Assembly (NCBI GenBank): GCA_021813145.1
Contig: JAKALS010000002.1
Span: 99,595-149,861, forward strand
Source: a bacterium
GTDB lineage: Bacteria; Patescibacteriota; Microgenomatia; Levybacterales; UBA12049
Length of the DNA: 50,267 bases
Reading direction: 5' to 3'
Under the pieces are notes generated by a model. That model was given only the letters and a program-made list of their open reading frames with translations. It did not search any database and was not told the origin of the DNA. The translations under genes and the position numbers were made by a program. Below, in pieces: positions 28,822 to 34,526 of the stretch; the first letter of the stretch is position 1; every line of letters begins with the position of its first letter.

Positions 28822-29151
28822 ATGCTTAAAAACCTGACTAAAAAGAGCACGGTTTCAAAAAATATAGAAGTGGCAGACGGTTTTTGGCAAAGGACCGTAG
28901 GTCTAATAGGAAAAGAAGGCAGAACTCTTACATTCCATACAAGATTTGGAATCCATACTTTCGGTATGAAATCCCCTATGGACGTACTGATACTTGACGA
29001 TAAGATGAAGGTTGTTTCTCTTAAGAAAAACTTCAAGCCAAACAGGATATTTTTATGGAACCCCAGATATAAAATAGTGGTAGAAACAAAAAATGGAGCA
29101 ATAGACAAAAGCAAAACCGGTCTGGGAGACATGCTTAAAATTGAACTATAG
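28822..29151 (+). CDS. DUF192 family protein; start corrected from track start 28726
   Basis: ADGFWQRTVGLIGK...LTFHTRFGIHTFGMKSPMDVLILD is DUF192-like; TATAAT at 28810-28815, 6 nt before ATG 28822. Confidence 0.8.
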   Translation: MLKNLTKKSTVSKNIEVADGFWQRTVGLIGKEGRTLTFHTRFGIHTFGMKSPMDVLILDDKMKVVSLKKNFKPNRIFLWNPRYKIVVETKNGAIDKSKTGLGDMLKIEL

Positions 29152-30471
29152 GCTCTCGGCTCTTTTTTTATCCCAGAATTCTCCCCGTCTGCAAAGCTTA
29201 TCTTTATCCTTTATATTTTTTAATAATATCTCAACTACTCTTTCCAGATACAAGGTATTCTGGGAACTTTTTACAAGAATTATGTCTCCCGGTTCTATAA
29301 GCTCTCTTATTTTTTCCCTCCCCTCGGTAAAATTGGGAAATTCATAAAAAGGAAACTTATGCTCCATAAGAACAGGCGCTACAAATTTCTGCATTAGGGG
29401 ACCTATTATTACGGCGAAATCGCAAGTATTTAGAATTTTATCGGCAACTATTTTATGCTGCGTTGCGCTTAAGGTTCCGAGCTCGCGCATATCTCCCAAA
29501 ATTGCAATTTTTCTTTTGCTTTTACCGATTTTTTTAAGCATATCCAGAATGTCCAAAAGAGGAATGAGTGTGGCATTATTGTATGAAGAATCTATAACTA
29601 CGGAACCTTTTATTCCTTCGAATACATTCATTCTGCCTGCAGGCAAAGAAAAACTTTTTTCCAAAGCTTTTATTGCTTCTTCTATACCAAATCCCGCCTC
29701 TTTTGAAACAGCGATAGCAAAAAGAATCGAATAAATATAATGTACCGGAAGAGGCTGACTGATTTTAACTTTGTATTCTTTTTCTCTATACTTAAAAGAA
29801 AAACTAAAAAAATCAATTCCCAAATCGATATTTTTTGCAAAAAAGTCAGCCCGATTATTCTTAAGCGAAACGTTTACTATCGAACTTTTTATGTTATCTA
29901 TATATTTTAGAATTTCCGAATCGTCATTATTTATTACAACAATTCCGTCTTTGCCGAGTGAAGTTATCAGCAAAGATTCCTGCCCGGCCGTTAAAGATAA
30001 TATTTTTTCTTCCCTTTTTTCTTCACCCTCGACCAGATAATCAAAATACTGACTGTGTTCAAGCGAAATATTGGTCAAAACTGCAATTTTCGGCTTTATG
30101 ATTTTAAGGAGATAGCTCATATTCTTGGGCTCTTTAGGCCCGTCTATCCCCATCTCGGCAATATATATTTCGTATTTATCCCAATCAAAGATAATCCTAA
30201 AAAGTCCAACAAGAGAAATCCTTAACCAATCTTTTATGGAATAATCTTTTGGCGAAACAAAGAGAACGCTCAAGGGGATACCTGTCTCGCTGTTTTTCCC
30301 GCCGCTCTGTCTTATTTTATATTTTGTTTTTAAGATAAGAGAAATCAAATAAGAGGTCGAGCTTTTCCCGCTCGAGCCGCCTACTCCTATTACAAGAGGT
30401 CTTATTTTCCAAAGTTGAATTTTGGCCAACAAACGAAGGTATAAAAGAAAAAATTTCTTAGCTTTATCCAC
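29146..30471 (-). CDS. murF: MurF-like Mur ligase, GTG start, no N-terminal domain 1
   Basis: GVGGSSGKSSTSYLI P-loop, PAGRMNVFEGIKGSVVIDSSYNNAT, ILGDMRELG. Confidence 0.87.
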   Translation of the reverse strand: MDKAKKFFLLYLRLLAKIQLWKIRPLVIGVGGSSGKSSTSYLISLILKTKYKIRQSGGKNSETGIPLSVLFVSPKDYSIKDWLRISLVGLFRIIFDWDKYEIYIAEMGIDGPKEPKNMSYLLKIIKPKIAVLTNISLEHSQYFDYLVEGEEKREEKILSLTAGQESLLITSLGKDGIVVINNDDSEILKYIDNIKSSIVNVSLKNNRADFFAKNIDLGIDFFSFSFKYREKEYKVKISQPLPVHYIYSILFAIAVSKEAGFGIEEAIKALEKSFSLPAGRMNVFEGIKGSVVIDSSYNNATLIPLLDILDMLKKIGKSKRKIAILGDMRELGTLSATQHKIVADKILNTCDFAVIIGPLMQKFVAPVLMEHKFPFYEFPNFTEGREKIRELIEPGDIILVKSSQNTLYLERVVEILLKNIKDKDKLCRRGEFWDKKRAESL

Positions 30472-30497: not shown

Positions 30498-32183
30498 TTA
30501 TTGTCCGCCAGAAGGAGGAATTCCGTAATAAGCAAGAAGGTCTTTTGCTATTTCAAAAAATACCGGTGCCGCAGTTTCGGCACCGTATATAGAGGCCGTA
30601 GGCTTATCCAAAATAACAAGCATTGCGAATTTTGGATTGTCCGCAGGAGCAAAACCCACAAAAGAAGCAATAGTTTTTGTAGGATCATAATGGCCGTTTA
30701 TCGGAATAGAAGCGGTTCCTGTTTTGCCTGCTATTCGATAGCCGGGAAGCTTTGTCCAGGCCGCTTCCCCTTTATCTACCGCATTTATCATTATCTCGGT
30801 CATGACTTTTGCTGTTTCGGGGGTTATCGGAGAATCAATCTCTTTAGGCGGAATTTTAACGAGTGAACCGTCAGGGTTTTCAACGGCCGTTACTACATGA
30901 GGCTCCATCCTGTGGCCGTTATTGGCTATTGCCGAAATAGCATCAAGAAGTTCAATCGGTGTTACGGAAATTCCCTGCCCGAATCCGGTTGTTGCCAAAT
31001 CTACCGGGTACCACTGGCTTGGAGGTTTCATGGAGGGGGCAACCTCTCCCTGTAAATCGATTCCGGTCATATTGCCTATCCCAAATTTATTCAGATAATC
31101 AATCATTCTTGTAAGCCCCAGCTTTTGGGCAACAAATACCATACCCGTGTTATCCGAGTGCTGAATGACTTCGGTCATGGTGGTGTTCGGAAAATACTTA
31201 TCGTCCCAAGTATGTATTAAATATCCTCCAACGGGTACGGGTCCCGCACATATAGGACACTGCGTATCGGGCGTAATAAGATTTGCATTAAGAGCGGAAG
31301 ACATGACAATAGGCTTAAAGGTAGAACCGGGTTCATAGGTGTTTGTAATAAAGGGGTTTACGTAAAGGTTATCGGAATAATCCTGATAATTGCTCGGATC
31401 AAAAGTAGGAAAAGAAGCCATTGCTATGATATCCCCCGTTTTCGGATCCATAATCCCTATCATTCCCCCGGTTGCTCCGTATTTCTGAATACTGTCTTTA
31501 AGTACTTTTTCTGCCAAAAATTGTATAGGCCTATTTATACTTAAGATAAGACTGCTTCCGTCTATCTGCGCAGACTGCTGGCTTATTTGCGACAATATCG
31601 GTTTTCCGAAAGCATCGTGAACCTCTATTGCCGTTCCCGCTTTACCTTCCAAAAGCCTATTATAATAACCTTCCAAACCGAAGTACCCTTTATCGTTCCC
31701 GTATTCGTCTTTGCCTACAAAACCCAAAAGTTGTGCCGCCATGGAGGCCTCGGGATAAAAACGCGTATACTGCTGTTCAAAGCCAATTCCCGACAGATTA
31801 AAATTTGATATTTCGTCTTTTACTTTACTCTCAACGCCCGAGGCAATAGGAACCCAGTATCTGTCGAGGCTAAGCTCTGCGCTAATCGTGGCCTGGTCGA
31901 TTCCCAGAGTTTTTGACAAAAGTAAAGAAGTTTCGCCTATATTCTTAATTTCTTTCGGATTGGCAAATACCTGATAGGCAATCCTATTTGTGGCGATGGG
32001 AAATCCGTCGGAAGTCATTATTTCACCTCTTTGGGGATAAAGAGTAACCGTTGTTCCGTATTGCTGCTGACCAAGCTGGGAAAGCTCCTGGGCTTTAACT
32101 ACCTGCCAGTAAAAGAGTCTGGCAATTACTATAAAAAACAGGAATAGTATTCCTACAAATGTAATTCTGTATCTCCATGTCAT
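30498..32183 (-). CDS. ftsI: Class B penicillin-binding protein FtsI/PBP-like
   Basis: EPGSTFKPI (SxxK), HSDNTGM (SxN), AGKTGTA (KTG). Confidence 0.94.
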   Translation of the reverse strand: MTWRYRITFVGILFLFFIVIARLFYWQVVKAQELSQLGQQQYGTTVTLYPQRGEIMTSDGFPIATNRIAYQVFANPKEIKNIGETSLLLSKTLGIDQATISAELSLDRYWVPIASGVESKVKDEISNFNLSGIGFEQQYTRFYPEASMAAQLLGFVGKDEYGNDKGYFGLEGYYNRLLEGKAGTAIEVHDAFGKPILSQISQQSAQIDGSSLILSINRPIQFLAEKVLKDSIQKYGATGGMIGIMDPKTGDIIAMASFPTFDPSNYQDYSDNLYVNPFITNTYEPGSTFKPIVMSSALNANLITPDTQCPICAGPVPVGGYLIHTWDDKYFPNTTMTEVIQHSDNTGMVFVAQKLGLTRMIDYLNKFGIGNMTGIDLQGEVAPSMKPPSQWYPVDLATTGFGQGISVTPIELLDAISAIANNGHRMEPHVVTAVENPDGSLVKIPPKEIDSPITPETAKVMTEIMINAVDKGEAAWTKLPGYRIAGKTGTASIPINGHYDPTKTIASFVGFAPADNPKFAMLVILDKPTASIYGAETAAPVFFEIAKDLLAYYGIPPSGGQ

Positions 32184-32464
32184 TGTTTAAGTGCTATAGG
32201 CAGCGGATTAGTCAAGACAAAATCTCCCGAGTTCTGAACAAATCCCAAATTCTTCGCTTCTTTTGAAACGTATGTCAGCGAAGACATAGAATACACTTTT
32301 TCGCTTAAAATTGCATTCTCCGTTTTATAATAGCTTATTTGCTGCTGTATGTCACCCAAAACCATTCCCGAGGTTGATATCCTGTTTGCAAGAAAAGTCT
32401 TAAACAAAGACAGGACAACTATCGTCATTACCAAAAATAATATTATGAGGGCAGGTTTTTTCAT
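32180..32464 (-). CDS. ftsL: FtsL-like small bitopic division protein
   Basis: N-terminal TM plus short coiled coil, between rsmH and ftsI. Confidence 0.7.
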   Translation of the reverse strand: MKKPALIILFLVMTIVVLSLFKTFLANRISTSGMVLGDIQQQISYYKTENAILSEKVYSMSSLTYVSKEAKNLGFVQNSGDFVLTNPLPIALKQ

Positions 32465-32466
32465 AA

Positions 32467-33363
32467 TTAATTTTTTTCAAATACTCTTAATTTTGCGCTT
32501 CTGCTTCTTGTATTCACTCTTTTTTCTTCTTCTGTTGCCGTTACCGGTTTCTTTGTGATTACTCTTCCCTTATTTTCTTTTTCAAAACCGGCAAAAGCTT
32601 GTTTTACTATTCTGTCTTCTAAAGAATGGAAGCTTATTACAGCCATTCTTCCTCCACTTTCCAAAAGCCCCAAAGCTTTTGGAAGCGCTTCTTCAAGGCT
32701 TCCCAGTTCGTCGTTAACCGCAATTCTTAAAGCCTGAAAAACCCTCTTATTTAAATTCGCTCTGGTAAAGTCGTTTACTTCGCCTTTTATCCCGTATGCC
32801 TGTTGTATAATTCCCGATAAGTCCCCTGTTGTCTCGATGGGCGCTATTCTACGGGCGCTCACAATACCGCGAGAAATGGCAAGAGCATTGCGTTCTTCAC
32901 CAAATTTACTAAAAATTTCATTCAATTCTCCTTTCGGTAAAACGTTTATAAGGTCTCTTGCCGATACGGCAAGCTCCTTGTCCATTCTCATGTCCAGCGG
33001 ACCTCCTTTTGAAAAACTGAATCCCCTCTTCGGGTTATCTACCTGATAGGAGGAAAGACCCAAATCAAAAATTATTCCGCCGACCTTATCAAATTTATTT
33101 AAATGTGCAATTCTGTCTATATCCCTAAAATTCCCTTTGGCCGTAAGTAATTTGGAATTCGTAATTTGTAATTTGAAATTGTTTTTAACGTACTTTAAAG
33201 CTTCTTCGTCCTGGTCTATTCCTAAAACTCTTCCTCCAAGCCTCAAAATTTCCCCGGTATGTCCGCCTCCTCCCAGAGTTGCGTCTATATACCTTTTCCC
33301 CTCCTTAACTTCTAAAAAGCCAAGAACTTCTTTTAAAAGTACCGGCGTATGAAAATTATTCAT
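32467..33363 (-). CDS. rsmH: 16S rRNA (cytosine1402-N4)-methyltransferase
   Basis: HTPVLLKEVLGFL, YIDATLGGGGHTGEIL, DLGLSSYQVDNPKRGFSF, VISFHSLEDRIVK. Confidence 0.97.
   Translation of the reverse strand: MNNFHTPVLLKEVLGFLEVKEGKRYIDATLGGGGHTGEILRLGGRVLGIDQDEEALKYVKNNFKLQITNSKLLTAKGNFRDIDRIAHLNKFDKVGGIIFDLGLSSYQVDNPKRGFSFSKGGPLDMRMDKELAVSARDLINVLPKGELNEIFSKFGEERNALAISRGIVSARRIAPIETTGDLSGIIQQAYGIKGEVNDFTRANLNKRVFQALRIAVNDELGSLEEALPKALGLLESGGRMAVISFHSLEDRIVKQAFAGFEKENKGRVITKKPVTATEEEKRVNTRSRSAKLRVFEKN
33148..33182 (-). repeat. Heptanucleotide array inside rsmH
   Basis: Plus strand TAATTTG GAATTCG TAATTTG TAATTTG AAATTGT. Confidence 0.8.
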
Positions 33364-33366
33364 AGC

Positions 33367-33804
33367 CTATTTCCCTTTTTCCTCTTCTACCAAACGCTGC
33401 GAAATTCTGTCTATGTTCTTTTCAAGGTTCACTCTATATTCTTCCCAAAGCTCTTTACTCCAAACCTCAACGTATCTGGAAAGGCCTAGGAATACGACAT
33501 CTCCTTTAATCTTTCCAAAGTTTCTAAGGTAAGAAGGGATAACAAACCTTCCCTTATGGTCGAGCTCGACACTACTTGCGTTTCCGAGTAAAAACCTCTG
33601 GGTTTCTCTAGTCTCAGACTGGATAAAGGGCTTTCCTTCCGTACCTTCAAGTAGAGCCTTCCATCCTTCTTCCGATACGACGATAAGCGAGTTTTCATAT
33701 CCTAAAGTTATAATCAGCTTATCCTTGAGAACTTCCCTGAATTTTTTTGGAAATGCCGTTCTTCCTTTGGCATCGACTTTTCCTTCGTATTGTCCTATCA
33801 ACAT
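33367..33804 (-). CDS. mraZ: Transcriptional regulator MraZ
   Basis: MLIGQYEGKVDAKGRTAFPKKFRE and ASSVELDHKGRFVIPSYLRNF (two SpoVT/AbrB-like repeats). Confidence 0.95.
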   Translation of the reverse strand: MLIGQYEGKVDAKGRTAFPKKFREVLKDKLIITLGYENSLIVVSEEGWKALLEGTEGKPFIQSETRETQRFLLGNASSVELDHKGRFVIPSYLRNFGKIKGDVVFLGLSRYVEVWSKELWEEYRVNLEKNIDRISQRLVEEEKGK

Positions 33805-33811
33805 ATCTTCA

Positions 33812-33827
33812 CCCCGATATGGCGGGG
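33812..33827 (-). promoter_or_regulatory. mraZ leader hairpin CCCCG-ccatat-CGGGG overlapping the SD (GGGGTGA)
   Basis: Direct reading of the minus strand. Confidence 0.55.
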
Positions 33828-33840
33828 CCTGCCTTCTGGC

Positions 33841-33887
33841 CCACTATTTCCCACTTTGGACCACTTTATACCATTTTGAATCACTTT
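33841..33887 (-). promoter_or_regulatory. Five tandem MraZ-box-like repeats, 10-bp phase
   Basis: Minus strand: AAAGTGA ttc AAAATGG tat AAAGTGG tcc AAAGTGG gaa ATAGTGG. Confidence 0.85.
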
Positions 33888-33929
33888 ATAGGTACGTGTC
33901 AAGAGGTAAAACAGAAAAATAGTGTATTA

Positions 33930-33957
33930 AAAAGAAAAAACCGCTAAATATGTACGG
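33930..33957 (-). terminator. Weak candidate terminator downstream of the 33975-34526 gene
   Basis: Minus strand CCGTA..TAgCGG imperfect stem followed by TTTTTTCTTTTT. Confidence 0.35.
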
Positions 33958-33974: not shown

Positions 33975-34526
33975 TTACTGAGAGGATGTAGGACCGGCTG
34001 ACAACTCTGCTTGATAGGCTTTTCCGTCTGTTTTTGTAATTTTAAGAGTCAATTTTATGTCCGTAATGCCCGTATCATAATGGCAGACATCCGAACAAGT
34101 TCCTAAGGTTATGTCCTGACTTACCGGACTCCCGGGACTTTTTATCGTAATATCTCCTATAGCTCCTCTTGCTACCTGCTCCCCATTGACGGTTGCATTG
34201 TAAGATAATTCGTAGCTTACTGCCGTTAAGTCTTGTGTCTGGCTAATCTTCAGCGTTACCACCTTGTCTCCGGGACCCTCCGTAAGAGTAATACCCAAAG
34301 AGCTCGGATCTATCGAAGGCACGGGTGTATCCGTGGGCATAGGTGTTACCGCCGCCTGCTGCTGTTGAGGCTGGGATTTAGAAGAAGAAATAAAGAAAAA
34401 TGCTCCTCCCAAAACGACTAACACTACAACGACTGCTAAGGCTATAAGAAGAGTCTTATTTTTGAGGTACTTTTGGAGTTTTTCCATAACTGTAGCTAGC
34501 ATATCCGAAACCTTTTCCACTGTCAA
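33975..34526 (-). CDS. Hypothetical membrane-anchored protein with Pro/Thr linker and extracytoplasmic domain
   Basis: TM LLIALAVVVVLVVLGGAFFFI followed by TPMPTDTPVPS linker and a beta-rich domain. Confidence 0.7.
   Translation of the reverse strand: MTVEKVSDMLATVMEKLQKYLKNKTLLIALAVVVVLVVLGGAFFFISSSKSQPQQQQAAVTPMPTDTPVPSIDPSSLGITLTEGPGDKVVTLKISQTQDLTAVSYELSYNATVNGEQVARGAIGDITIKSPGSPVSQDITLGTCSDVCHYDTGITDIKLTLKITKTDGKAYQAELSAGPTSSQ

Follow-up and report, generated by a model that had tools for sequence, protein, structure and literature searches.

A predicted MraZ-box operator and a probable paired NrdR operator at the dcw promoter of a Levybacterales bacterium

Few bacterial regulators are as conserved as MraZ; to our knowledge, work on its operator covers only a few species. 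What are the five short repeats that stand before mraZ in this genome, and which regulators could act on the promoter that they cover? We analysed a window of 50,267 nucleotides (contig JAKALS010000002.1, positions 99,595 to 149,861) from a genome of 954 kb in 6 contigs that encodes one MraZ; a search with this single MraZ protein gave Candidatus Levybacteria/Levyibacteriota (Patescibacteria) as named relatives. As read from the DNA sequence, the locus probably combines a MraZ autoregulatory operator with a paired upstream NrdR operator that would modulate the same dcw promoter. The genes 3' of the repeats follow one another in the order mraZ, rsmH, FtsL-like, FtsI/SpoVD-type penicillin-binding protein and MurF-type ligase, mraZ being the first dcw gene:

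33367-33804, minus strand: mraZ, encoding a 145-aa MraZ (TIGR00242, 102 bits, cut-off 98; two PF02381 domains)
32467-33363, minus strand: rsmH (mraW), second gene of the dcw cluster (TIGR00006, 294 bits)
32180-32464, minus strand: small FtsL-like protein, from a weak NF053549 match (E 3.8e-4, below cut-off) and its position in the cluster
30498-32183, minus strand: FtsI/SpoVD-type penicillin-binding protein (TIGR02214, 390 bits, below its cut-off)
29146-30471, minus strand: MurF-type ligase (TIGR01143, 179 bits, below cut-off)

Two DxxxR motifs are the hallmark of the MraZ DNA-binding family. The translated MraZ consists of two MraZ/AbrB-like halves with one such motif each (D11-R15 and D82-R86); R86 is invariant and D82 nearly invariant in alignment A3. 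The MraZ entries of the PDB matched by sequence are 1n0e, 9qlg, 9qlr and 9sx6, and no paper describing the recent ones was found in the literature searched.

Between a TTGACA hexamer and mraZ, five units of 10 bp succeed one another in exact phase on the minus strand, from 33887 down to 33838. The elements of the core promoter and of the array, as predicted, are:

33897-33902, minus strand: -35 hexamer TTGACA; TTGAC is invariant in the 35-sequence alignment A1
33878-33887, minus strand: predicted MraZ box 1 (weak), AAAGTGATTC, within the -35/-10 spacer
33873-33878, minus strand: -10 hexamer CAAAAT, 18-bp spacer to TTGACA
33868-33877, minus strand: predicted MraZ box 2, AAAATGGTAT, holding most of the -10 hexamer
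33858-33867, minus strand: predicted MraZ box 3, AAAGTGGTCC, with the predicted transcription start near the 5' end of the box
33848-33857, minus strand: predicted MraZ box 4, AAAGTGGGAA, identical to E. coli box 3
33838-33847, minus strand: predicted MraZ box 5, ATAGTGGGCC

The start near the 5' end of box 3 is deduced from the position of the -10. The original prediction had read five exactly 10-bp-phased boxes upstream of mraZ and the dcw cluster, and five in-phase units are indeed seen, with MraZ and RsmH encoded downstream; the array is real where it was placed, except that it ends at 33838, three bases past the 33841 then given. None of 200 dinucleotide shuffles of the locus equalled the array score. 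The dyad AAAGTGGNNNAAAGTGG has four overlapping matches in the array with 0-2 mismatches, and its sole other one-mismatch match in the genome falls in coding sequence. With a promoter-plus-boxes model (R1), the array was retrieved at E 4.8e-16 and the next best match in the genome at E 0.029; no further MraZ target was found in the genome, the next R1 matches being single promoters without repeats or coding sequence.

We then read the array across relatives. MraZ is present in 55 of 60 relatives and in 321 of the 385 genomes sampled from the phylum, and the mraZ upstream regions of the 55 MraZ-bearing relatives served as the conservation set. The phase, which had been expected to recur at orthologous mraZ genes, does so: at least three boxes stand in exact 10-bp phase in 45 of the 55, and the distance from one GTGG to another is 10 in 37 cases and 20 in 21, with two pairs at all other distances between 4 and 40. 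Arrays are broken or weak in the relatives L025, L069 and L070. Sixty mraZ upstream regions from other Patescibacteria classes gave the distance of 10 bp 105 times, against 0-6 times at 9, 11 and 12, with in-phase chains of up to four or five boxes, and mraZ upstream regions were among the best matches of a phylum scan with R1. The repeats at 33838-33887 are thus predicted MraZ boxes, an autoregulatory operator of a type already known and new in this lineage.

The promoter itself could be anchored on TTGACA in 49 of the 55 class relatives. Among these, the spacer from TTGACA to the -10 is of 17 bp in 36 and of 18 bp in 9, so that the overlap between repeats and -10 (TTGACA-18-CAAAAT), already pointed out for this locus, is conserved. 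Boxes 2-5 are well conserved in the anchored promoters and box 1 is weak. The fourth base of box 2 is A in 43 of 49 and that of box 3 is G in 39 of 49, suggesting that box 2 has been adjusted to double as the -10 (cAAAAT). From this arrangement we infer that MraZ binds the boxes and represses its own promoter. The subunits of the MraZ ring oligomer would dock on successive 10-bp direct repeats along one face of the helix, and the repeats would extend from the -35/-10 spacer over the -10 and the start site to about base 25 of the transcript. Box 2 would be both MraZ box and -10, the change from G to A at its fourth base restoring cAAAAT while AAAnTGG is kept. Because box 2 and the -10 have common bases, MraZ and RNA polymerase would be mutually exclusive: bound MraZ would shut out the sigma-70 RNA polymerase, and expression of mraZ, rsmH, the ftsL-like gene, ftsI and the mur gene would fall as MraZ rises. 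Since the site is single in the genome, MraZ here would exert feedback locally, on the dcw cluster, a role also reported in M. genitalium (PMC8475190).

A second element, which was not part of the original prediction and is added by the present analysis, lies upstream of the -35:

33912-33952, minus strand: probable NrdR operator, ACATATTTAGCGG-N15-ACACTATTTT, matched by model R2

Its inner halves are a degenerate TAGCGG on the left (33941-33946) and ACACTA on the right (33920-33925). Most genomes of the order have TAGTGt-N15/16-ACACTATTTT, with ACACTA as right inner half, upstream of the mraZ -35. The inner halves are 15 or 16 bp apart in most relatives (15 here) and the element stands 16-18 bp from TTGACA. 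A score of at least 9 out of 12 was reached in 21 of 41 members of the order at exactly 18 bp and in 7 at 17 bp, the maximum of the shuffles being 2 at any offset. The left box is often palindromic, for example ACACTACATGTAGTGT in L071, its inner half being degenerate at the present locus. The R2 match at this site has an E value of 7.3e-5 in the genome and of 1.8e-5 in the collected mraZ loci. Six genomes of the order outside the training set (G433, G436, G439, G449, G453 and G454) have the element in the same place before mraZ. When R2 was run on 60 mraZ loci of other classes and on more members of the class, the element was found only within the order, save for one weak match in L072.

NrdR is a sensor of ATP and dATP that binds DNA when loaded with both. 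An NrdR operator is expected to have two boxes, each a palindrome of 16 bp, with 14-17 bp between them. Its operators comprise two boxes spaced by 15-16 bp (PMC12051234), and the element resembles the double-box operators of ribonucleotide reductase (RNR) genes described there in its inverted TAGTG/CACTA half-sites and in the 15-16 bp between the boxes. It differs from them in its dcw target, in the position of the boxes upstream of the -35 and in the outer right half-palindrome, which is missing in most mraZ sites (alignment A4).

As in those systems, NrdR is encoded here beside an RNR gene (nrdR, C6:71724-72164, then the RNR gene, C6:72443-73885), and the nrdR promoter has the same pair, ACTGTAGATCTAGTGT-N16-GCACTACAAGTAGTGA (71662-71707), with the -10 between the boxes. 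We compared the two kinds of promoter in both directions. Firstly, R2, a model made from mraZ-upstream elements only, was searched in 40 relatives. It gave matches within 250 bp upstream of nrdR in this genome (G000) and in G006, G007, G010, G019, G022, G040, G042 and G045, among about 100 other matches listed, for an estimated chance expectation near nrdR of ~0.03. The R2 match reported in the held-out genome G448 is also the nrdR promoter. Overall, R2 detects the nrdR promoter of no fewer than 10 genomes, this one included. Secondly, R3, a model made from 26 nrdR promoters only, finds nrdR and, in five genomes (G001, G012, G015, G039 and G041), the upstream region of mraZ as well; it finds nothing in the window, not even the mraZ site that R2 does recognise. 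The other matches of R2 and R3 lie near assorted genes and form no clear regulon. No NrdR was found in G037 (99% complete), G017 (98%) and G018, though the element is present; incomplete assembly is only one conceivable reason. G044 has no NrdR match either, but an nrdR-type operator stands at a contig end, so that its nrdR may be cut off. Taking these results together, we regard it as quite likely that the element upstream of mraZ is an NrdR operator.

We infer that NrdR, bound at this element, would modulate, and most likely repress, the mraZ promoter together with the nrdR-RNR operon; expression of the division genes would thereby be tied to the supply of deoxynucleotides. We lean towards the reading that NrdR directly regulates the dcw promoter in this order, through a paired operator at a fixed distance upstream of the MraZ-box promoter. 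If so, DNA-precursor supply and division-gene expression would come under one transcriptional sensor. Such a direct regulatory connection from deoxynucleotide supply to the division genes, which the probable NrdR operator would provide, is the main interest of the locus. No description of NrdR acting on mraZ or dcw was found in the literature searched, mostly without subscription papers.

Because the pair is located upstream of the -35, outside the core promoter, any NrdR effect could be of either sign. That NrdR, bound at its own site, activates or insulates the dcw promoter instead of repressing it is a possibility to which we give some weight while thinking it unlikely. The upstream position, which sets the mraZ pair apart from the nrdR promoter of the same genome, would suit such a role, and the NrdR of P. 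aeruginosa is reported to raise topA expression via a single box (PMC4409342). Against it, the -35 and the -10 of S. pneumoniae nrdHEF both lie downstream of box 2 (PMC12051234); operators upstream of the core promoter thus also occur at RNR promoters.

A further explanation, which we consider improbable, is that only the MraZ array is regulatory and that TAGTG...CACTA is a terminator or remnant of the preceding conserved membrane-protein gene. The same gene family precedes mraZ in most relatives, and in L029 and L025 a T-run comes after a small hairpin formed by the left half. However, most copies of the element have no hairpin, and the right half, ACACTA, is conserved as much as the left. 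The element moreover keeps 17-18 bp to the mraZ -35, whereas the distance from the stop codon to the ATG varies from ~131 to 359 bp where the gene is present. Finally, no such gene precedes the nrdR promoters that R2 also recognises.

NrdR-like pairs were also observed elsewhere. One genome has a second pair (L318:1501-1538, that is G032:C2:1543-1580) located ~1 kb 5' of mraZ and preceding a short reading frame, and G440, of the same genus, shows two R2 matches ~1.4 kb apart. Further intergenic pairs are found at L290:969-1009 (G040), L291:984-1021 (G012) and L292:952-991 (G045), the first two near a TTGACA.

How, then, does the MraZ array relate to known MraZ operators and to the core promoter? 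Eraso et al. reportedly placed MraZ boxes at the E. coli mraZ promoter in 2014. From the sequence of E. coli K-12, we read an AGTGGG that starts 30 bases after TTGACA and two more at +10 each. Both operators have direct repeats of the GTGGG type with a 10-bp period, a first core 31 bases after TTGACA, and mraZ-rsmH directly downstream. Boxes 3-5 here correspond to the three boxes of E. coli, since they share the same register to the promoter. In E. coli, however, the three boxes stand downstream of a separate -10, whereas here the -10 incorporates an extra box and the spacer holds a weak one. Having five boxes where E. coli has three thus amounts to a modest variant, given that boxes 3-5 match those of E. 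coli (described in PMC8475190), box 2 is the -10 and box 1 is weak. The copy number of five, to which the original prediction drew attention as exceeding the three of E. coli, holds for this locus and is typical only of the genus and some relatives, the family pattern being four well-conserved boxes and a weak box 1. Nor is it exceptional, runs of similar length being present in a Brevibacillus MAG and in other Patescibacteria.

The resemblance to mollicutes that had been proposed was not borne out as a special one: it resembles the mollicute site no more closely than that of E. coli, AAAGTGGGAA being E. coli box 3 in the same register. The mollicute MraZ site is given as (AAAGTGKN3)3 (Fisunov et al. 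2016, as cited in PMC5282649 and PMC8475190). It shares with the present array the AAAGTGG units with 3-bp gaps, and such a motif is the sole one in the M. genitalium genome, as it is here. The two differ in copy number and in the fixed -35/-10 register that the present analysis shows for Patescibacteria. The C-protein HsdC of M. gallisepticum targets a GTG direct repeat of similar type, a site that MraZ also binds in vitro (PMC5282649). It is nevertheless very unlikely that the present repeats are bound by such another direct-repeat regulator and not by MraZ: HsdC repeats have an 11-bp period, HsdC showed no binding to MraZ boxes (PMC5282649), and throughout the phylum the repeats accompany mraZ and keep strictly to a 10-bp period.

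The register of these predicted MraZ boxes to the promoter is fixed well beyond the order. Counted from the first base of the -10, the GTGG core of the class relatives lies at +14, +24 and +34. It lies at -6, +14/15, +24/25, +34/35 and +44/45 from the -10 in 49 promoters of other classes, for which three shuffled sets gave no recurrent GTGG offset. The GTGG at -6, within the spacer, is found in 27 of these 49 Patescibacteria promoters and has the register of box 1 here. A role of the repeats at the RNA level, in translation or attenuation and with boxes 3-5 in the leader, is scarcely credible: these boxes are predicted to be transcribed, but folding of the leader is not unusual (z -1.18), and conservation follows the DNA helical period and is anchored at the promoter instead of the start codon, the -35-to-ATG distance varying from 65 to 121 bp. 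Because E. coli and Patescibacteria hold the boxes in a single register relative to the core promoter, a simple model of occlusion by MraZ becomes testable, and dcw promoters can be called in uncultured genomes. In the loci L114-L173, from other Patescibacteria, an AGTGG directly 5' of TATAAT (-6) with boxes at +15/+25/+35 makes a recognisable dcw promoter signature.

Several minor observations were made around these loci. R1 matches elsewhere in G087 have the look of a dispersed repeat and not of box arrays; two of its contigs, C124 (L301) and C35 (L303), share a near-identical palindrome of ~75 bp, CCGAATTACT...AGTAATTCGG, probably a small mobile or repeat element. On the 5' side of mraZ, a small membrane protein gene with a weak FliL-like match (33975-34526, minus strand) adjoins it, as in most relatives, and the proteins encoded there share a common family end, YD..V..IKL.LK..K.DGK, throughout the order. 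Between the AAGGCAGG element (33828-33835) and the start of mraZ, the minus strand has a hairpin, CCCCGCCATATCGGGG (33812-33827). GGCAGG is seen again before mraZ in many relatives, with a stem between GGCAGG and the ATG in several of them.
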